A stretch of DNA of 23,110 bases from a virus: positions 1-23,110 of IMG/VR virus record IMGVR_UViG_3300007512_000213. The stretch is one strand, 5' to 3'. The notes beneath the pieces were generated by a model. That model was not told where the DNA came from. It worked only from the letters and a program-made list of their open reading frames with translations, and ran no database searches. This document shows, one piece after another, positions 770 through 10,205 of the stretch (its first letter is position 1; each line of letters starts with the position of its first letter). The position numbers and the translations under genes are program-made.

Positions 770-853
770 TCATTTATTATTTTTCATAGTCACTGCACAG
801 CCAACCATCATAGTCAAGGCAAATGCTGCAGCTGCTAATTCAAAAAGTATCAT
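770..853 (-). CDS. 27-aa hydrophobic micropeptide
   Basis: A short ORF (27 codons) starts at ATG 853, overlapping the TGA stop of the 5' nuclease gene as ATGA, the classic layout for translational coupling. The peptide has one hydrophobic segment, from about residue 2 to 23 with several Ala, Leu and Met residues, and ends M-K-N-N-K, so it would be a single membrane helix with a positive tail. The sequence V-G-C near residue 19 is only a poor lipobox. The downstream HExxH gene starts 16 bases after its stop. Codon coupling and composition suggest a real gene, but there is no strong ribosome site and no recognised family. Its function is unknown. Confidence 0.5.
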   Translation of the reverse strand: MILFELAAAAFALTMMVGCAVTMKNNK

Positions 854-1839
854 TCTTTGTTATCCCGGCAAATACGCCTAAAGTCTTGGAACAAATCGGA
901 CCAATAATTCTCGCTGATGCCATCCTCAAGCATCATAAGGTCTGTTTTCGTCTTATTAAACTCATATTCAAACTCATTAATCGTCCAATCCACACTTTGT
1001 TTTGTCTGAATAGACAGACTTGGGCTATAGAGCTGCATAAGACTATAGTTCTCCTTAATTAGTTCTTGATTATCTATTATAGACTGATATGCCTTAACTT
1101 TGCTTTCTTGATTGGAACAAAACTCAACCAATTCTGATACAGTAACATCTCTTTCTTCTTCGAAAAAAGTAAATCTTTTGGCCACAGTTTTTAATCCAAC
1201 TCCGGGTACACCCTCAAGATTATCAGATTTATCACCAGCGATGGCTCGGGCCAAAGCAAAATTTGTTGGGTGAATCCCATGCTCTTTTACAATGTTATGT
1301 TTATTTAAGAATTTTTTTTGTATTGGACGATGAAGAACTGTGTTATCATCCAGCAACTGATAGAAATCTTTATCGCTGGATATAATAACCTTTTGGTTGT
1401 TCTTATAACAAGAGTAACGAGTGATATATGATATCAAGTCATCTGCTTCAACCTCGTCTGCTACTAATTGAATTACTGGAAAATTATTGAGATATTCAAA
1501 AGTTCTGTGCATTTGCCAGATTCTGTTTTCGTTTTCTTGTTGCTCGGTTAGGACTTTTATATTCCTATTCAAGCGAATAGGGGCGCGGCCTTCCTTATAA
1601 TTTTTATTTACTTGTTTTCTTTTTCTGCTGCCTCCGCGACCATCCCAGCACATAATAATTGTATCCGGCTTAATCTCTCTCGAAAGCTTCTGTAAAGATT
1701 TAAGAAATCCCGCGGTGCCACCAATTGGATTACCATCCTTCGACATCGTAGGGTTGACAATATACGATCTTAGAAACATATTCAGCGAATCTATGATCAT
1801 CACTCTTTTATTCATTGTGTTATTTGTATTTCCGTTCAT
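850..1839 (-). CDS. FEN/Pol I-type 5'-3' exonuclease (flap nuclease)
   Basis: 329 aa, near the size of T4 RNase H. It carries the conserved acidic metal-binding residues of the PIN-like FEN fold: MIID (Asp17), CWDG (Asp66), D-E-V-E-A-D-D (128-134), S-S-D-K-D (154-158) and G-D-K-S-D-N (202-207). These are followed by the helix-hairpin-helix-like DNA-binding turn G-V-P-G-V-G at about 210-215. Such enzymes remove RNA primers and 5' flaps during lagging-strand synthesis. The polymerase in this window has no fused 5' nuclease domain, so this gene probably supplies that activity. The true start is uncertain: ATG 1839 and the in-frame ATG 1815 both lack a clear ribosome site, and the second gives the more family-like start MNKRVMIID. 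It follows the recombinase gene by 29 bases. Confidence 0.93.
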   Translation of the reverse strand: MNGNTNNTMNKRVMIIDSLNMFLRSYIVNPTMSKDGNPIGGTAGFLKSLQKLSREIKPDTIIMCWDGRGGSRKRKQVNKNYKEGRAPIRLNRNIKVLTEQQENENRIWQMHRTFEYLNNFPVIQLVADEVEADDLISYITRYSCYKNNQKVIISSDKDFYQLLDDNTVLHRPIQKKFLNKHNIVKEHGIHPTNFALARAIAGDKSDNLEGVPGVGLKTVAKRFTFFEEERDVTVSELVEFCSNQESKVKAYQSIIDNQELIKENYSLMQLYSPSLSIQTKQSVDWTINEFEYEFNKTKTDLMMLEDGISENYWSDLFQDFRRICRDNKE

Positions 1840-1868: not shown

Positions 1869-2981
1869 TTATCCTTCTTCGTCATAAAAATCTGAGGCTT
1901 TCCCTGTTCGTTCATCGAACTTTCTAATAATTTCCTCATCCATGATTTGAAGCACTCTGTTTTTAAACTTCGAAACCTCCAACTTATCTAGCCACTTTGC
2001 GGATTGAAATTTTTCGGCGGTGCCGTCTTCATAAACTAACTCATACCATGCTCCGGAGCGCCGCAAAAGATCCGAGGACTGGATGGCATCGAACCAACTT
2101 TCTTCGTCTTGTACACCCACTTTTTCACCCCAAAGAATTTTAAACCGGCATTGGCGACCCTGTGAACCAAATCGTGACTTCTCAAGCTTTATTTTTACAG
2201 TGTTGCCAATACGATAATCCTTATCATCATAAACATAAGATGCTTTTGCTTTGGGTCTAGTTAACCAAATTCGTAATGAATACGAGTAGATAAGAGTTTT
2301 ACCTCCCGGAGTCATGTATGGCGTAGTAAGCGCCTCAGATGGAGAACGTGTAATGTTCGCCTTAAGCTGATTCAACACCAGAAGTGTTGATTGCGTATTG
2401 GCAATTGACACAAGTAGTTTTGACATCCCCTTCGAAAGAATGCGTGCTTTGACCGCCATTGTCGATTGAGGGTTAAAGTCGCCCTCGATATCTGAAACAG
2501 AAGGAGTTAAGGCCAAGCTATCCCAAATGAAGAGCATTCTATTATCGTTTGATTTTAGAAGCTCTTCTATAGTCTCCAAGACAAATTCAACATTTGTTGC
2601 TTGAATATAAAGAATTTTGCTGGCGTCACATCCGGATCTCTCTAAAAATGAATTATCTAGTGCAGACTCAGAATCAAAATAAACAACATCAATGCCCTTC
2701 TTTTGAGCATTTGCTGCAATTTGAGCAGCCATATATGATTTGCCACTCGATTCAAGACCTGCAATCTCAGTCACTTTTCCAACAGGAATGCCAGATAGCT
2801 TTCCTCGACAAATGATTCCATCGAGCCATCGAGATCCAGTTGGAATCCAGTCAGTTACATTTGTTGGATTGTTTTCGTCGTTAAGGTCATGAGCAACTTG
2901 CATTCCAGCCTTTTTATTAACAAGCTGTCTCATTTGTTCGATACTAAGCTTTCCAGCTTTTACTTCTTTTTTACGAGCCAT
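1869..2981 (-). CDS. uvsX: UvsX/RecA-like strand-exchange recombinase
   Basis: 370 aa, between RecA (about 350) and T4 UvsX (about 390). Visible RecA-core motifs in order are Walker A G-L-E-S-S-G-K-S (75-82), the catalytic-glutamate region YFDSESALD (Glu105), Walker B MLFIWDS (149-155), L-N-Q (203-205, the RecA Gln194 position), and TPGGK (224-228) followed by a RecA-like S-L-R-I-W strand. The C-terminus is acidic (DEEG). It should form ATP-dependent filaments on single-stranded DNA and drive recombination-dependent replication and repair, working with the gp32-like protein encoded two genes upstream. AGGGAG 10 bases before ATG 2981 supports the start. Confidence 0.93.
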   Translation of the reverse strand: MARKKEVKAGKLSIEQMRQLVNKKAGMQVAHDLNDENNPTNVTDWIPTGSRWLDGIICRGKLSGIPVGKVTEIAGLESSGKSYMAAQIAANAQKKGIDVVYFDSESALDNSFLERSGCDASKILYIQATNVEFVLETIEELLKSNDNRMLFIWDSLALTPSVSDIEGDFNPQSTMAVKARILSKGMSKLLVSIANTQSTLLVLNQLKANITRSPSEALTTPYMTPGGKTLIYSYSLRIWLTRPKAKASYVYDDKDYRIGNTVKIKLEKSRFGSQGRQCRFKILWGEKVGVQDEESWFDAIQSSDLLRRSGAWYELVYEDGTAEKFQSAKWLDKLEVSKFKNRVLQIMDEEIIRKFDERTGKASDFYDEEG

Positions 2982-2995
2982 TAAATTTATTCTCC

Positions 2996-3301
2996 CTATT
3001 TTGAAATTTTAAATGCATGAAAGCAACTTCGGAAACCTTTTCTATCAAGCTTGATTATAACATTTTCTCCGTAGTCGGCAATTTCTAGGACATACCCTTT
3101 GCTTCTGGTCAGTAGGTTTGTAATATCACTATTGTCAGAATAGAAAGTTACGTAACCTTCCCCTATGTCTTGTTTGAATGCGTTGATGGCCGTTTCGCTG
3201 TCCGGGCCACCGCCTTTGCCCTTGAATCTTTTAGCGACTTCATTAATTTTCTTACTAAAGTCTTTATCGTTTTTCTTATACACTTTCTTGAATAGCGCCA
3301 T
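2996..3301 (-). CDS. Conserved-looking small protein of unknown function
   Basis: 101 aa, with a basic N-terminal third rich in Lys and a G-K-G-G-G turn, then a mixed alpha/beta-looking second half (GYVTFYSD, GYVLEIADYG, NVIIKLDRKG). No catalytic motif or domain that I recognise. The start ATG 3301 has AGGAG seven bases upstream, and that site lies inside the 3' end of the zinc-ribbon gene; the two genes overlap by 26 bases, which suggests coupled translation. The recombinase gene follows 14 bases downstream. Position between the single-strand binding protein and UvsX suggests a part in replication or recombination, possibly as a recombination-mediator (UvsY-like) accessory, but nothing in the sequence itself shows that. 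Confidence 0.75.
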   Translation of the reverse strand: MALFKKVYKKNDKDFSKKINEVAKRFKGKGGGPDSETAINAFKQDIGEGYVTFYSDNSDITNLLTRSKGYVLEIADYGENVIIKLDRKGFRSCFHAFKISK

Positions 3302-3554
3302 TTTTACTCCTATCGGGTCTTATAAGCCCAAAATCATCTTTCATATCATACCAATCATTATATAACTTGTCAAGAGAAATGTTGATATCTATTTTTTTAA
3401 CTTCGTAATTTGCGCCGGGGATTGCAAAGTGTTTAAAATATGTACAACCACCAGTTACCTCCACAGCGCCACAGGAACACTTTCGAAAATCTTCATCAGC
3501 TCTTGAGTAAATAATATCACCACAATCTTTACACTCAACTGCTTTTATTAACAA
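3276..3554 (-). CDS. Small zinc-ribbon protein
   Basis: 92 aa. The N-terminal half holds four cysteines as C8-x2-C11 and C26-x-C28 with a further Cys37, a zinc-ribbon-like knuckle pair. The second half (about 45-92) is acidic with aromatic residues (DWYDMKDDF) and no recognised fold. Zinc ribbons of this size usually bind nucleic acid or a partner protein, but no partner can be named here. It lies 67 bases after the single-strand binding protein gene and overlaps the next gene by 26 bases, so it is probably part of the replication operon. A GGAAAAG-like purine run lies before ATG 3554. Confidence 0.75.
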   Translation of the reverse strand: MLIKAVECKDCGDIIYSRADEDFRKCSCGAVEVTGGCTYFKHFAIPGANYEVKKIDINISLDKLYNDWYDMKDDFGLIRPDRSKNGAIQESV

Positions 3555-3621: not shown

Positions 3622-4365
3622 CTAGCTTAGAAGCTCTTTAAACGCCTTATCTACGCTATTGCCATTCACTGTTGCGGTTGAAGAGACCGTTGGCTCATCC
3701 GATACTTCTTCGCTGTTTAAGTAAGCAGCAAGGATATCTTCGACCTCTTGAGGGGTCTTTCGGCCTGACTCAAACACTTCTTCAAAATCCGGAACATCTT
3801 CCATCAATTCTACAACACGCTCAGAATCCTTATGAAGAGGCGACGACTTGCGGCGAGGGGTAATCTTGGTTTCTGGGAAAGACGCGCCGGCTGGCTTTCC
3901 GTACCCAATAACCAAATCTGTGCCTGTCTCCGGGTCTGTGATGTCGCCATATTCAGGATTTAAAACGAGCCCCAGAAGCGTTTCGTAGGTTCGCTTACCG
4001 AACCCCCAAACCTTTACTCCTTCGCTCTCTTCTCCTCGTACAATTACGGGAGCAAAAAAGCGTTGCCGAGCACCAAGCTTCTTCGCAACTCGCTTGGACT
4101 CTTCACTACCCTCCTTCCAGAGCTGCTTCACATAATTATCAAGAGGACAATCCTCTCCAAAGTTACGCTTAGGACTCAGGAAGCCGGGTTGGTCGCCAAC
4201 ATTGTAGTGGAACCAATAATCACGGAAGGGGTCTCCATCAGAAGAACATACAATACGAATCGTTTGCTCTCCATCTTGAGGACGCCAAAAGCGGTTAGAG
4301 CCGCCGTTTCCGTTGTTTTTCAATGCCACTTGTCGGGCCCGCATTTTTTCCATATTAATAGCCAT
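3622..4365 (-). CDS. gp32-like single-stranded DNA-binding protein
   Basis: 247 aa, somewhat shorter than T4 gp32 (301). The central part matches the gp32 core pattern: R-F-W-R-P near 25-29, the FHYN and CP-x-x-x-Y region (52-78), then a strand-rich block with VWGFGKRTYETL (119-130), E-T-G-T-D-L (146-151) and K-I-T-P-R (167-171). The C-terminal 60 residues are acidic and low in structure, ending AFKELLS, comparable to the protein-docking tail of gp32. Only one of the gp32 zinc-ligand cysteines (Cys73) is evident, so the zinc module seems lost. It coats single-stranded DNA and should recruit polymerase, helicase and recombinase. The start has AAGGAG upstream. Confidence 0.85.
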   Translation of the reverse strand: MAINMEKMRARQVALKNNGNGGSNRFWRPQDGEQTIRIVCSSDGDPFRDYWFHYNVGDQPGFLSPKRNFGEDCPLDNYVKQLWKEGSEESKRVAKKLGARQRFFAPVIVRGEESEGVKVWGFGKRTYETLLGLVLNPEYGDITDPETGTDLVIGYGKPAGASFPETKITPRRKSSPLHKDSERVVELMEDVPDFEEVFESGRKTPQEVEDILAAYLNSEEVSDEPTVSSTATVNGNSVDKAFKELLS

Positions 4366-4406: not shown

Positions 4407-5252
4407 TTAAGATACTAGTTTTTGTATTAACGAACTGTTACTTTCACAATAGATATATGATTGATCGTATTCTGTGGAGTATACTGCGTATCCCACCTTC
4501 ATTCTGTCATGCTCTATTGATTTTTTAACCTGTTCTTTAATCTTATTCATCAACATAGGGTCCTGTTCTAGAACACTATGAGGTATAGCATAATAATACC
4601 TTTTTTCTCTTGGAATGTCAAGGTCAAAAAAGCATTTTTCTTCTTCCTCGTCAAATTTATCAAATCCAATTGTACACATGCGTGCAGTATTAATACGCTT
4701 TGTAAACGTTGTAAAAACGGGCATGCTGTGTTCAAAAACATTGATCATGTGATAAGTTGAAGCAATCATCTGATTTATACTTTCCCAATAATTTAATATT
4801 GGAACAGGACCTATTATATCAGATAATTTATTGTTGTCAACTAAAATAATTTTCTCGAACAGCGCTGATCTTGCAAACTGCTGAAAAACATTAAATAAAG
4901 TGTTGTTTTGTAATTTTTGAATTTCTGACATACCCTCTTTGTCGGGGATTATATACATTAACGTTATTTTTGTTTTGTCTTTTATTTTCTCCAGTATACG
5001 CAGCGATGCTCCGGAGACGGCGCCACAACTTGTAATAAACAAAGTCTCATCTTCTACGACCTCCAAGAACTTATTAAGGGTTTTGGGTGTCTTTTCTTCG
5101 TATAGCTCTGAGGATTTTTGTTCTTTAAAGCCTAGCGTTTTTTTTGTTTTCTTGAGTCCAGTGTCAATTTTTAATATATCATACTCTGGATATAGTTTCA
5201 TGCAGTCGGCAATATTGCAGCCGGCTTGTCCTAGACCAATAACAGTTTGCAT
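4407..5252 (-). CDS. Divergent FtsZ/tubulin-superfamily protein
   Basis: 281 aa from ATG 5252, preceded by AGAGG five bases upstream (an upstream in-frame TTG is less likely). The N-terminus, VIGLGQAGCNIAD, matches the nucleotide-binding loop of FtsZ and tubulin. The next landmarks come in FtsZ order: LFITSCGAVSGAS (about 71-83) at the place of the GGGTGTG signature loop; a strand ending IIPDKEG where FtsZ has VTKPF-EG; KIILVDNNKLSDIIGPVP (134-151) where FtsZ has the IPNDKLL region; and a long helix WESINQMIASTYHMI. The glycine signature is degenerate and no N-x-D-x-x-D catalytic loop is visible, so GTP hydrolysis may be lost or altered. Phage tubulins (PhuZ, TubZ) position or segregate DNA, but those are about 320 aa and not usually placed here, between polymerase and ssb. 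The superfamily call is fairly firm; the function is open. Confidence 0.7.
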   Translation of the reverse strand: MQTVIGLGQAGCNIADCMKLYPEYDILKIDTGLKKTKKTLGFKEQKSSELYEEKTPKTLNKFLEVVEDETLFITSCGAVSGASLRILEKIKDKTKITLMYIIPDKEGMSEIQKLQNNTLFNVFQQFARSALFEKIILVDNNKLSDIIGPVPILNYWESINQMIASTYHMINVFEHSMPVFTTFTKRINTARMCTIGFDKFDEEEEKCFFDLDIPREKRYYYAIPHSVLEQDPMLMNKIKEQVKKSIEHDRMKVGYAVYSTEYDQSYIYCESNSSLIQKLVS

Positions 5253-5261
5253 CAATACCTC

Positions 5262-6443
5262 TTATTTAATATAAAGCTCTTTCATGTCGAGCCAATTCCT
5301 GCCAGCGCTGCAGTTAACTTTAAACTTGCCCATGCGCGTGTCGTAAAAAATGTGTTTTATATCATTTAGAAGAAGTTGATCCTCTTCAGAAAAGTCAACT
5401 ACAATCGAATCATGATTACAAAACTTAATGAAGCTTTTGCGGCCTTCTAGAAGTTCCCACACTTTATACATTTGTTCAAATAGAATATCTGCAGCTGTTG
5501 ACTGTATAATATAACTTACTGCATGATGATCATCACATTCTATTTCTCTACCAAAAATAGTCGTTACCTTATTATCCATAAAATGCAATCTTTTGATCTT
5601 CTCTCGGTCGTAAATCTTGCCAACCCTATCCTCACTGCTTTTTGGATTATAAAGCCAAGCAAAGATCCTTTTTTTAGCATTTTCGCGATCTTTTGACCTA
5701 AGAAAGACATGTTTTAGGTTCCAATCGTGAAGATCGCCTTCTGGTTGCTCCTGTCCCAGCAACCCCAGAGCCACTCGTAGCTCACAAGCATTAAAATCTA
5801 TTTCGAAAAGCCAATCGTTTGTCGGCTTCAAAACATTACGATATTTCTTTGCCAAGGTCATCACAGGAAAAGAATTCTTTTTTGTGCTCAATCTTCCAGT
5901 TTTGGTCTTGAACTGATCATAAGAAATAGCCTTGTCACATGTTTCTATAGTATTATAGGTATTTCTATCTTGTAGATTCGTTATTATAATTTCTTCCGGG
6001 TCGATGTCTAAAGGCTGCAGCTTTATTTCTGTAATCATTTTTTCTACTTTTAATAGCAAGTCATAATTTTTTGGCTTGCTGAAAGTTTGGAAGACATGAT
6101 CGCATATATTATTTTTTACTGTTGCCCATGTTTTGAGCATGTGTTCGGGAATTAGGTCGTAAAGACATATATCCCCGAGATTCATTCCAACGCTAGCGCT
6201 CGACTTTAGAACGGCCTTTATCCTGCGCTCGATACTTTTTAAGTCGTCTTGCCAGATGTCGGGGCATATTTCTTCTAATGATTTGCCAAAGGCGAATAAA
6301 TTAGCATAATCGACATTCATATCCTTTAAATAAGGGGCATATGCCCATGTTTTGTCGCAATCGGGTGTAATGTTTTTGTGAAATTCAAGGTTTTTATATA
6401 CCATGAAGCAATCTTTTTTCTCGTCAAACGTCTGAAACAACAT
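5262..6443 (-). CDS. Compact family A (Pol I-type) DNA polymerase
   Basis: 393 aa from ATG 6443; a TTG two codons upstream is an alternative. Numbered from that TTG, the polymerase motifs are T-K-T-G-R-L-S (182-188), motif A EIDFNACELR with Asp218, motif B as R255-x3-K259-x3-F263-x3-Y267 (the O-helix pattern, with Asn in place of the usual Gly after Tyr), IIQSTAAD (314-321) and motif C C-N-H-D-S (344-348). The second acidic residue of motif C, usually Glu, is Ser. The roughly 170 residues before the palm are too few for a thumb plus a full 3'-5' exonuclease, and I see no exonuclease motifs, so proofreading would have to come from elsewhere. The gene opens the replication block behind its own promoter and ends 9 bases before the FtsZ-like gene. 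Confidence 0.9.
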   Translation of the reverse strand: MLFQTFDEKKDCFMVYKNLEFHKNITPDCDKTWAYAPYLKDMNVDYANLFAFGKSLEEICPDIWQDDLKSIERRIKAVLKSSASVGMNLGDICLYDLIPEHMLKTWATVKNNICDHVFQTFSKPKNYDLLLKVEKMITEIKLQPLDIDPEEIIITNLQDRNTYNTIETCDKAISYDQFKTKTGRLSTKKNSFPVMTLAKKYRNVLKPTNDWLFEIDFNACELRVALGLLGQEQPEGDLHDWNLKHVFLRSKDRENAKKRIFAWLYNPKSSEDRVGKIYDREKIKRLHFMDNKVTTIFGREIECDDHHAVSYIIQSTAADILFEQMYKVWELLEGRKSFIKFCNHDSIVVDFSEEDQLLLNDIKHIFYDTRMGKFKVNCSAGRNWLDMKELYIK

Positions 6444-6450
6444 TGTCAAT

Positions 6451-6478
6451 ATTATACATAGTTTTTTTTCTCAATCAA
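6451..6478 (-). promoter_or_regulatory. Sigma70-like promoter of the replication genes
   Basis: Minus strand: perfect -10 box TATAAT (6451-6456) and -35 box TTGATT (6473-6478), 16 bp apart. The -35 box overlaps the stop codon of the last structural-type gene, and the -10 ends only 7 bases before the polymerase ATG. Transcription would start at or next to the ATG, and no ribosome site is seen, so the message may be leaderless. It marks the boundary between virion and replication genes. Confidence 0.6.
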
Positions 6479-7680
6479 GCAAAAAAGAATATTTCTTTGT
6501 CCTTCTCTGTGTATATCTTTGAATTTATTAATTTTAAGTCGATATAGTCCAAAGCTGTTTTCGAGCCTCCTAGGCTATAATAATTTTGTACGTTATAAAC
6601 CAAATCGCTATATCTATGTTCTTTATTGTTTTCAATGAGTCTGATTTTGAAATATAATTTTAAAAAGTACTCATTGCCGTATTTGTTTTCAAATGCCACA
6701 TAATTTGACAAGCTTTCAACTGGTAGTTCTTTTACCAAGTGAGTTTTATAATTTGAAAAAAGTGGGGAGCCATTTTTTATCGACTTAAGGCTTACCTTTA
6801 TTTTATTGTATGTCGAGTTAACTGAATAATAACTCGTGTAGAGCAAATACAAATATCTTTTAAAGTTGTTGAAGTCTATTTCTGAGGCTGTGTAGTAATA
6901 TTCATCGAAAAGATCATTGCCCTCTAAAGATATCCCATACTTTCCAGCGTATTTTATCATTGGGTTTGGCTGGCCCGGAGAGATTTCCTTACTCGTTAGG
7001 TCTGCCACTAATTGCCATGGAGCGTGTTTGTTTATTCTGAATCCAAAATTTCTACAAGGATTGATGAAGTTTAAATATTCAAATTTTTGCAAATATTCTT
7101 CCGCCTTTAATTCATTGTCTCCGTGGTCTTCTGCTATCAAATCTATGATAAGTCCTGATATTTTATTGGTGCAATTGCTTCCTAAGATATACTCGTTTTG
7201 TGTGATGGAGACATCTGGAGCGACTGTCCTCGCGTATCTAATGTATTCATTTACAAATCCTTCGAATGTCTTAATTTTCTTATCTGCAAGGTACGTGTTT
7301 AAAAAGGGATTGAATATGAAGTCTTCAAAGTATTTATCGTATTCCACTGGTAGAGACTTCCATGCTCTTTTTGGAGTAAAATCCTCAAGAAAATCAGATG
7401 GATAGACTTTCCTGTCTTTTGCCCTTCTGATAAAACTTTGAAGTTCTAAAAAGGCATCCGCAACAAAGTTTAAAGCTTTATGTTGGCCTCTGTCATCCAG
7501 ATTCGTTAAGAATTCTTCTTTAGGGTACACCGTAATCCCCTTTGAATCTATTTTGCCAAAATAAGGTCTCTTGTACCAGAGATCATAAAGTCTATTCTGG
7601 GGGACTACAGGGAAAATGTCATCGTATTCTTTTTTGCTTTTAAAGAAATCTGAAGCCTTCGACGAGTTGTTACTAAACAT
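6475..7680 (-). CDS. Unrecognised 401-aa protein, probably virion-related
   Basis: 401 aa, rich in Tyr, Phe, Asn and Lys, with no signal peptide, membrane helix or catalytic motif that I can identify. Notable segments are an N-terminal DLWYKRPYFGKID, a central NPCRNFGFRINKHAPWQLVADL (interrupted here only by memory of similar phage proteins, not by a search), and a C-terminal region with several tyrosine-rich strands (YLYLLYTSYYSV). It is the last gene before the replication promoter and directly follows the baseplate genes, which favours a structural or assembly role. The start ATG 7680 has AAGGAA about 13 bases upstream, a rather long spacing. Function unknown. Confidence 0.8.
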   Translation of the reverse strand: MFSNNSSKASDFFKSKKEYDDIFPVVPQNRLYDLWYKRPYFGKIDSKGITVYPKEEFLTNLDDRGQHKALNFVADAFLELQSFIRRAKDRKVYPSDFLEDFTPKRAWKSLPVEYDKYFEDFIFNPFLNTYLADKKIKTFEGFVNEYIRYARTVAPDVSITQNEYILGSNCTNKISGLIIDLIAEDHGDNELKAEEYLQKFEYLNFINPCRNFGFRINKHAPWQLVADLTSKEISPGQPNPMIKYAGKYGISLEGNDLFDEYYYTASEIDFNNFKRYLYLLYTSYYSVNSTYNKIKVSLKSIKNGSPLFSNYKTHLVKELPVESLSNYVAFENKYGNEYFLKLYFKIRLIENNKEHRYSDLVYNVQNYYSLGGSKTALDYIDLKLINSKIYTEKDKEIFFFA

Positions 7681-7703: not shown

Positions 7704-10205
7704 TTAATTATCTTTCAAAATATCCACAGGCATGACCGTTTTGCTAGTCACTGCAGTTGGCTCTTTCTTTGGTTTTTCCGGCTTTGATGTGGAAGATTTA
7801 GAAGTTTTGCTGTCTGGCTTCTTTTTGTCGCTGTCTTTCGGGGCTGCTCCTTTGTTGACTGTGCCCGAACTATTGCTCTTGACCTCTTCCATGAGAGCAG
7901 CCGATTGCGGTTTTGGTGGAGCGGCGCTCGATGCACTGTAGGTTTCCGTCTTCAGTTCTCCCGAATACAATAGGCTATAGTTTGTGGTCCATTCGTTGCC
8001 CGATATACTGTGCTCAAGGGAATGGATATAAAACAGCCCAGTAAAAAACAAATTATTGTTTTTTTGTTGGAAGAAGCCACCGTCCACAAATCGCGAATCA
8101 ATGTAAACCTTGTCGTTCAAGTTTAAAAACGGATTACCCCTTAAGCTCAATTGGGCTCGCATCTTGCTAGTTATCAAAACGGAGTCGCCATCGATGTCTC
8201 CAACTGAGTCTTCGTCACCTTTATTCGCGTTATATTGTTGTGACAGTGCCAGTGCTGCGAGACCTTTCAAGTGAATAGGTTGATAAGAAATTGATTTTAA
8301 CGGGCCTTTATCTGGACCACCTAAAAATATAGTTGGAATATTTAACTTTTTCCGCCTTTTCTTATTAACTTTTTTATCATACAAAATGTTCTTTAGAAGT
8401 ACGAAGTCCTTAATTTTTGTGGTCCCTTCATCTCCCATGTGGTCGGCAAAGTTCTTAATTGTTTTAGTTTCTTTGTCAATGGTTTTTTCATCAAGTGTAT
8501 ATACTTGACTACCAGCATAAAATTGTAAATCTTTACCAGTTTTCTCTTTCTCTCCGCCAAGTATTTTTAGATCAAAGAACCTTTTCATGAAATCAGAGAG
8601 AAACCCTCTCAAACTTAAGAACTTGAGATCCCGTTCAAGCATCATCTTATTCAGTTCAAACAAAAACATATCCATAGAAATAGGAGTGTTCGCTATGCTG
8701 TAGATTTTTTTGCTTTTTTTGTTTTGGATGTATACTGTGGGGCCCAAAAGTATATTAAAGGCGTCATCGCCCATTTCATCTAAATCTTGGCCTAGGCCGG
8801 TGCCGCTTTGATTATTCAATATAACATTCAAAAGATCTCCAAAATAGAAAAATTTTATTTTTTCAAAACTTGAATCGGAGTCGGTTTTATCGCCACTGAA
8901 CTTCCTTATTCTAAAATTTCCTCCAGAGAACACAACCGCATTTGGCGGAGTTTTGTCTAGGACATCTTTTGGTGCCAATTTAACTTTTTTATTTTCATCA
9001 GGCACAATTCTTAGAGTAGAAACGTCTACTGGTTCTCCTTGGGCAATTTTCTTAATATATTTTTTATATTGTTCGTTGTCCATTTCTAGATAATAAATTT
9101 TTCCAAGCTCATATAGTGCCGATATATAAGAGAAAACCGGAGGTATCGATTTTGCTTGTTTGGCAAGCTGAGCTTTTCTTTGCAACTCTTTAATCTCTTT
9201 TTCAAGCTTTTTAATAGTCCCTCCCGACTTTTTAAGGTCAGGCTTCTGGTCGTCGGAAAGAGCTTCAGTTGCTGCTATCTGTTTGTCAAACTCATTCTGT
9301 CTTATTAACTTGTCTAGATTTCCACGTTTTTTCTCTAGCTCTGAGGAGGAATATTCTTCTTCCTTGTCCATGACAAGCATATTCGTGCCTTTTCGAATGT
9401 TTTTATAATACTTTGGATCCAACAAGTTCAAAGATTGCCCCACAGTTTCAGAAAACCCTTCCAGTGTTGTGGTTAATTGGGCGCTGCCGTTTTCGTTGTA
9501 TGTGATGTTCGTTTTCGCGCCATTGGGAAACAAATTTAAAATTAATTTCTTCTTTGCCATTTGTTCAAGATCTAAATTTAAATTCTCTGGTATTCCGTAC
9601 CCAATTTCTATGACTATTCTGTAATTGGCTTTTGCAGGGCTGGCAAACAAATCCTTATATTTAATATTTCCTTCGTCGTCAAGGTTCTTAAACAGCATCT
9701 TGACATCTTGGAAATCCATTGATAGGTTAACAACAACATTTGACAATGTTGCCGGGGTGGCCCCTTTCCCACCCAAGCCTTTAAATGACAAATTTAAATC
9801 CTTCAGGCCGACCAATGGTCCCATAAACCTATCCGCCATAAAAGGAGTCTGGCCTCCAATATATTCTATTGGGTTCTCAAAGCTCTTGTAATCCATGCGG
9901 TTTTCAAAAGGAAACTCAATTCTTTTTTTAACATTTTTCCTTTGAAAGACTTTAAAAATTTTGATTGAGGGGGTCAATATACTTAGCTGCAGCGGATTAG
10001 CGCTGAAGAACTTTAAAACTTCTGGGGTTGTTGATTGTGCTGGCTCAAGATATGGGTTTTCGTCTAAATAATAAATGTACTTGTTGTCGGGCCTTTTATC
10101 GTTATAAAATTCATAAAGCTCTCCGTAGTAACCCAAAAGCTTTTGCTGATTCTTAACTTGGCTACCTAAAGAAACAATATAATCGGATATGGAAGGTAAG
10201 CTCAT
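7704..10205 (-). CDS. Large baseplate protein, hub-like
   Basis: 833 aa. The N-terminal half contains beta-rich stretches typical of virion proteins. Around residues 280-350 there is a charged, Lys/Glu-rich coiled-coil segment. The region at 722-749 ends with LEHSISGNEWTTNYSLLYSG, a pattern (H-x-I-S-G-x-x-W-T-T) seen in hub proteins of the gpD/gp27-like type where a beta domain closes. The last 80 residues are a low-complexity S, K, P and T-rich tail that ends in V-M-P-V-D-I-L, a motif shared with the tape measure. It lies directly after the gp53/LysM-like gene: its ATG abuts that gene's TAA, and AAGGAG lies within the last codons. No lysozyme domain is visible. Structural role is likely; the precise hub assignment is inference. 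Confidence 0.65.
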   Translation of the reverse strand: MSLPSISDYIVSLGSQVKNQQKLLGYYGELYEFYNDKRPDNKYIYYLDENPYLEPAQSTTPEVLKFFSANPLQLSILTPSIKIFKVFQRKNVKKRIEFPFENRMDYKSFENPIEYIGGQTPFMADRFMGPLVGLKDLNLSFKGLGGKGATPATLSNVVVNLSMDFQDVKMLFKNLDDEGNIKYKDLFASPAKANYRIVIEIGYGIPENLNLDLEQMAKKKLILNLFPNGAKTNITYNENGSAQLTTTLEGFSETVGQSLNLLDPKYYKNIRKGTNMLVMDKEEEYSSSELEKKRGNLDKLIRQNEFDKQIAATEALSDDQKPDLKKSGGTIKKLEKEIKELQRKAQLAKQAKSIPPVFSYISALYELGKIYYLEMDNEQYKKYIKKIAQGEPVDVSTLRIVPDENKKVKLAPKDVLDKTPPNAVVFSGGNFRIRKFSGDKTDSDSSFEKIKFFYFGDLLNVILNNQSGTGLGQDLDEMGDDAFNILLGPTVYIQNKKSKKIYSIANTPISMDMFLFELNKMMLERDLKFLSLRGFLSDFMKRFFDLKILGGEKEKTGKDLQFYAGSQVYTLDEKTIDKETKTIKNFADHMGDEGTTKIKDFVLLKNILYDKKVNKKRRKKLNIPTIFLGGPDKGPLKSISYQPIHLKGLAALALSQQYNANKGDEDSVGDIDGDSVLITSKMRAQLSLRGNPFLNLNDKVYIDSRFVDGGFFQQKNNNLFFTGLFYIHSLEHSISGNEWTTNYSLLYSGELKTETYSASSAAPPKPQSAALMEEVKSNSSGTVNKGAAPKDSDKKKPDSKTSKSSTSKPEKPKKEPTAVTSKTVMPVDILKDN

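Follow-up and report, generated by a model that had tools for sequence, protein, structure and literature searches.

A tubulin active site is shared by two subunits: it forms around the nucleotide bound by one and is completed by the T7 loop of its neighbor. TubZ, the partition tubulin of plasmids and phages, has about 400 residues or more, is an active GTPase and partners with the adaptor TubR. Phage tubulins are regarded as a mark of the nucleus-forming jumbo phages (Chimalliviridae), with a handful elsewhere (PMC11835377), and other reports likewise link them to the Chimalliviridae and a few others (PMC7824862, PMC7162821, PMC9123017). Polymerization of the phage tubulin PhuZ requires its long C-terminal H11 tail, and the T7 mutant D190A forms non-dynamic filaments (PMC7950403).

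The gene analyzed here lies in a 23,110-nt stretch of viral DNA (the window) and encodes a 281-aa protein that, judged by strict features, is predicted to belong to the tubulin/FtsZ superfamily by fold, yet is not FtsZ, TubZ or PhuZ. With FtsZ, the bacterial and archaeal division GTPase, it shares the predicted fold, the order of loops and strands, a GxGxxG-type T1 loop and the positions of N165, F182 and N186. Unlike FtsZ, it is without GGGTGTG, the T3 motif GAGANPE, the T7 motif NxDxxD and helix H8, its C-terminal domain is smaller, and its gene sits in a phage replication operon. PhuZ is likewise a phage-encoded tubulin fold, and the start of its helix H7 (SYESIND) resembles YWESINQ of the 281-aa protein. 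In contrast, the GGGSGS loop, the T7 motif DxxD, a long C-terminal tail and a TubZ_C_2 domain belong to PhuZ and not to the protein described here; moreover, PhuZ occurs with chimallin in phages of more than 200 kb and does not adjoin polA, as the tubulin-like gene does. TubZ is a high fold match. In the open-access literature, we found no description of a tubulin-like family between polA and ssb, an earlier mention being possible in subscription papers.

The gene and its replication operon

Minus-strand positions 4407-5252 form an open frame of 281 codons with an ATG at 5252 and a stop codon ending at 4407; an alternative in-frame TTG start is possible at 5255. The frame is part of a replication module with the order polA-tub-ssb-uvsX-exo, in which tub is the tubulin-like gene:

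5262..6449, minus strand: polA, short family A DNA polymerase, 395 aa (PF00476, E=2.6e-11)
5258..5263, minus strand: Shine-Dalgarno-like AAGAGG seen in the sequence, 5 nt before the ATG and overlapping the polA stop codon
4407..5252, minus strand: predicted tubulin/FtsZ-superfamily coding sequence without T7 catalytic loop, 281 aa (open frame, Pfam, AlphaFold2 and Foldseek; 208-locus family)
3622..4365, minus strand: gp32-type single-strand DNA-binding protein, ssb (PF08804, E=1.3e-13; phrog_1192)
1869..2981, minus strand: UvsX/RecA recombinase (PF00154, phrog_97)
850..1839, minus strand: 5'-3' exonuclease (PF02739, phrog_107)

The overlap of AAGAGG with the polA stop codon suggests that the tubulin-like gene may be translationally coupled to polA. 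Pairwise dN/dS between the gene and its near relatives is 0.07-0.17, and the protein is therefore under purifying selection.

A scan of IMG/VR yielded at least 593 confirmed relatives. The family set used below comprises 208 IMG/VR loci with one copy each, including 132 full-length members of less than 90% identity to one another; the lowest pairwise identity within the family is 22%. The initial annotation had placed the gene between polA and ssb in the window, and the same arrangement is found throughout the family: going upstream, the first homologue of a window gene is polA in 181/181 testable loci, and going downstream it is the gp32-type ssb in 200/200, the rest of the 208 loci stopping at contig ends. 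The median distance between polA and the tubulin-like gene is 1 nt, with an overlap in 88 of 181 loci, while in some loci other ORFs lie between them. To avoid circularity, loci were also fetched by polA alone, and the tubulin-like gene is present in all 80 of those nearest to the window polA. Since the clade keeps the order of genes throughout the module, position alone does not establish contact with the replisome.

The window further encodes a 1141-aa tail sheath, tail tube proteins, a baseplate wedge and a hub; the phage is thus contractile-tailed. Far from being a one-off, the tubulin-like gene is part of the core gene set of a large uncultured clade of such phages, a clade that we read as marine from sample numbers and first searches. 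Records bearing the gene reach 190 kb, the longest thus lying under 200 kb. No chimallin was detected in 17 such records of 42-186 kb, which may be fragments and in which a very divergent chimallin could escape, while three of three control phages were positive. Neither 50,697 GenBank phage records (tblastn with the 281-aa protein and two divergent relatives) nor 84,980 bacterial and archaeal species genomes contained a relative, very near records possibly being omitted. A gene of this kind, universal in a large group of uncultured marine phages and placed inside their replication operon, would widen the range of the tubulin fold.

The same polA-ssb-recA-exo order and related proteins occur in Immutovirus (Flavobacterium immuto phages), Microcystis phage Mel-JY01 and the 484-kb uncultured phage LR756508. 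In these phages, however, the slot is without the tubulin-like gene and holds other short ORFs instead; a search of this slot in the cultured relatives revealed no tubulin.

Several features of the module stand beside these results. The family match of the window polA is limited to the polymerase part, so that a proofreading exonuclease, if any, would be encoded elsewhere; Immutovirus, Mel-JY01 and LR756508 have a similarly short PolA (408-452 aa). Just downstream of ssb, positions 3276-3554 encode a small zinc-ribbon-like protein matching DUF7695 (E=2e-13), and at the end of the module, positions 400-753 encode a protein matching phrog_15610, labeled protease (E=7e-21). Upstream of polA lie two ORFs that are syntenic in the clade, at 6475-7680 (401 aa) and 7704-10205 (833 aa), neither of which has a significant family match.

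Predicted fold and superfamily

The AlphaFold2 (AF2) model of the 281-aa protein, built from 33 family sequences, has a mean pLDDT of 93.1 and a pTM of 0.91. An independent AF2 model was obtained for a relative (L050; 28% identical, ten sequences, pLDDT 72). The models have a two-domain fold composed of a Rossmann-type GTPase domain, a long central helix H7 and a four-strand C-terminal domain. Foldseek returned 579 matches in the PDB at E<=0.001 for the main model; each of the best 50 listed is an FtsZ or a TubZ, with E-values down to 3e-12 and TMq (TM over the query) of 0.65-0.74, and TubZ structures 2xka and 4ei7 are among the high matches. For the relative, 40 PDB matches were obtained at E<=0.001, all of them FtsZ, TubZ or tubulin. 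Among the viral models of BFVD, the best match (TMq 0.79) is A0A6J5RW92, an FtsZ-like protein of an uncultured Caudovirales phage that has 452 aa versus 281 aa here and is 14% identical; other phage tubulins follow.

Profile-profile comparison with FtsZ is collinear through T1, T4, S5, S6-N and H7-N to mid-H7 (P=9e-4), and that with PhuZ across the first 100 residues (P=4e-4), versus P=0.02 for the unrelated polA family as a control. Identity to FtsZ is about 11-15%. The Pfam Tubulin family PF00091 matches residues 76-147 with E=1.4e-4 and 22.6 bits, under the curated cut-off of 33. Such a sub-threshold score is not odd for a phage tubulin, because the bona fide PhuZ of 201phi2-1 likewise stays under the cut-off (29.9 bits). 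A survey of phage tubulins demanded an HMM bit score above 30 (PMC11835377), a level of which the present family would probably fall short.

Other sequence searches were less informative. Those of PHROGs and NCBIfam gave insignificant matches only, and a PDB sequence search with the single protein or a five-member alignment gave nothing useful. With the 33-member alignment, weak KtrA Rossmann matches ranked above weak FtsZ matches; after the fold searches, the KtrA matches were judged to reflect the shared GxGxxG loop and were set aside.

The initial annotation had described FtsZ-order landmarks in this frame and, on that basis, a match to the tubulin superfamily. Both observations hold. The strings that it quoted, VIGLGQAGCNIAD, LFITSCGAVSGAS, IIPDKEG and KIILVDNNKLSDIIGP, are all found in the 281-aa protein, and the long helix said to follow KIILVDNNKLSDIIGP corresponds to residues 152-174 of the AF2 model. 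It had also named two findings that would speak against a tubulin, a structure without the tubulin GTPase domain and a firm placement in an NAD- or FAD-binding family. The models instead predict a tubulin fold; the profile searches gave no NAD/FAD family placement, their other low-E matches being short GxGxxG-type ones to KtrA/TrkA only, and none of the listed Foldseek matches of the main model is an NAD/FAD-type or KtrA/TrkA protein. By its predicted fold, the protein thus very probably belongs to the tubulin/FtsZ superfamily, an assignment that is secure at the level of prediction.

Nucleotide pocket and catalytic elements

Conservation was scored on the 132 non-redundant full-length members, and the following elements were located, with residues numbered from the ATG:

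5214..5240, minus strand: T1-like nucleotide loop IGLGQAGCN, residues 5-13 (G6 99%, G8 99%, G11 98%; n=132)
5010..5030, minus strand: degenerate T4 signature loop SCGAVSG, residues 75-81, replacing GGGTG[TS]G (alignment, n=132)
4866..4883, minus strand: Q124...R128-S129, invariant and specific to the family, where helix H5 ends (100% in 132 members)
4833..4835, minus strand: N140, aligned with the guanine contact N165 of FtsZ (94% conserved; register from the profile-profile alignment)
4773..4787, minus strand: W156-x3-N160, aligned with F182-x3-N186 of FtsZ (guanine stacking and contact; N160 96%)
4689..4730, minus strand: segment in place of the T7 loop and helix H8, residues 175-188, without catalytic acids and coil in the AF2 model
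4680..4682, minus strand: family-specific R191 at the start of strand S7 (R 95%, K 4%; n=132)

The T1 motif GxGxAG is retained, while the phosphate loops T3 and T4 are altered. Strict GGGTG[TS]G occurs in 0/132 members and the weaker G.G..[ST]G in 63/132; two alignments place T4 two residues apart, which leaves its exact register ambiguous. The T3 motif GAGANPE was not seen in the family alignments. The residues proposed for a conservation check, G9, G12, S81 and G82 when numbered from the TTG, correspond to G8, G11, S80 and G81 and are conserved in 99%, 98%, 82% and 73% of members (S or T at position 80 in 93%).

In contrast to the catalytic elements, guanine recognition appears to be kept. 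N165, F182 and N186 hold the guanine base in FtsZ, as N206, Y224 and N228 do in beta-tubulin, and an aromatic residue at position 156 together with N140 and N160 is found in 109 of 132 members. The T7 loop NxDxx[DE] is found in none of the 132. Between N160 and the S7 glycine G196, the spacing is 36 in every member versus 40 in E. coli FtsZ; the multiple alignment assigns this four-residue gap to the beginning of the T7 loop, and the position of helix H8 is modeled as coil. What the initial annotation noted for the window protein, a signature loop that is degenerate and a catalytic loop that seems missing, hence holds for the whole family. Its further suggestion of a possibly non-hydrolyzing protein gains support from these residues and can be refined: because the guanine-recognition residues are retained, binding without hydrolysis is likelier than loss of the nucleotide. 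Binding itself is uncertain, because loops T3 and T4 are altered. On the sequence evidence, a pocket occupied by GTP or GDP combined with absent T7 catalysis is probable, and the family would be a natural case in which the T7 catalytic loop was lost and guanine recognition retained.

The C-terminal end is short. With a family median length of 282 aa, there is no long C-terminal tail: the 281-aa protein ends 4 residues past Q277, and family members end within about a dozen. The TubZ_C_2 domain PF22334, which a Pfam scan matched in PhuZ, has no match in the 281-aa protein, and the short end does not hold an FtsZ-type FtsA/ZipA-binding peptide. R128 and R191 are leads as a candidate arginine finger.

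Possible roles in the replication module

The roles brought up in the initial annotation, DNA positioning, binding of host FtsZ and a scaffold, are ones that we can only infer. The best explanation of the whole, which we advance tentatively, would be a GTP/GDP-binding, hydrolysis-deficient tubulin that forms a static scaffold or polymer for the replication module. GTP or GDP would be bound at the usual pocket, and hydrolysis between subunits could not be completed. Static, non-treadmilling polymers or small oligomers would form, would be produced together with the DNA polymerase, and may gather, anchor or position the phage replication machinery and DNA. We favor a nucleotide-bound static polymer or oligomer because T7 is absent and T7 mutants of PhuZ make non-dynamic filaments. 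A scaffold role in replication, taken by itself, is put forward quite tentatively, and it is possible but doubtful that a hydrolysis-dead tubulin is a built-in core part of the replisome or replication compartment in a widespread marine phage clade. Against the scaffold, the long H11 tail that PhuZ needs to polymerize is absent here, and cultured phages sharing the operon lack the gene.

The fold may also have become a GTP-binding platform that does not polymerize. The protein would then assist the replisome as an accessory subunit or sense nucleotides for it, perhaps by regulating the short PolA or raising its processivity. The tight polA-tub coupling (median gap 1 nt, 88 overlaps) and the 395-aa PolA are consistent with such a subunit, and a protein that has lost T7/H8 and some of its C-terminal domain may also have lost polymerization; since other ORFs intervene between polA and tub at some loci and related phages with a PolA of 408-452 aa are without the gene, we regard this as fairly unlikely. 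It is unlikely, too, that the protein is a dead tubulin acting on the host FtsZ ring, capping or poisoning it so that the infected cell cannot divide. Takeover proteins are usually variable accessory genes, whereas the tubulin-like gene is found throughout the clade at a fixed place in the replication module, and identity to FtsZ is just about 11-15%, even though FtsZ is the closest fold among solved structures (best 50 of 579 PDB matches) and a nucleotide face without a T7 face could cap FtsZ ends.

A PhuZ/TubZ-like motor for DNA positioning or partition would require dynamic GTP-driven filaments and another catalytic residue, such as R128 or R191, in place of T7. The fold and guanine-contact residues are retained, the gene is a core gene of the replication module, and the invariant Q124/R128/S129/R191 could form a replacement active surface. 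Nevertheless, such a motor is quite unlikely: T7 is found in 0/132 members, the C-terminal tail is absent, no chimallin was detected in the 17 long records, no adaptor gene was recognized among the neighbors, and T7 loss ends the dynamics of PhuZ (PMC7950403). The hypothesis of a Chimalliviridae nucleus with its spindle was rejected, the search of the 17 long records having yielded no chimallin. Finally, it is highly improbable that the protein is a different Rossmann-like nucleotide-binding protein with a GxGxxG loop, as weak profile matches to KtrA/TrkA, ThiF and dehydrogenases within the first 90 residues would suggest, given that both independent models match FtsZ, TubZ and tubulin alone among the listed matches at E<=1e-3 and that a four-strand C-terminal domain following a long central helix is tubulin-like in the main AF2 model.

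If the static scaffold is correct, it would be unrelated to the nucleus and spindle of jumbo phages and would represent a new function for the tubulin fold. With this small protein, the question whether ordinary myoviruses organize replication with a cytoskeletal protein becomes directly testable.

In the related phages, the slot contains a shared family of 130-150 aa with the motif ILVHRKKxxNTLYTINALN (L153:1346-1801, L152:3813-4256, L151:8203-8592). The tail sheath of the window phage (15669-19094) is unusually long; a large insertion is likely, because its best sheath match is confined to the C-terminal 460 residues.
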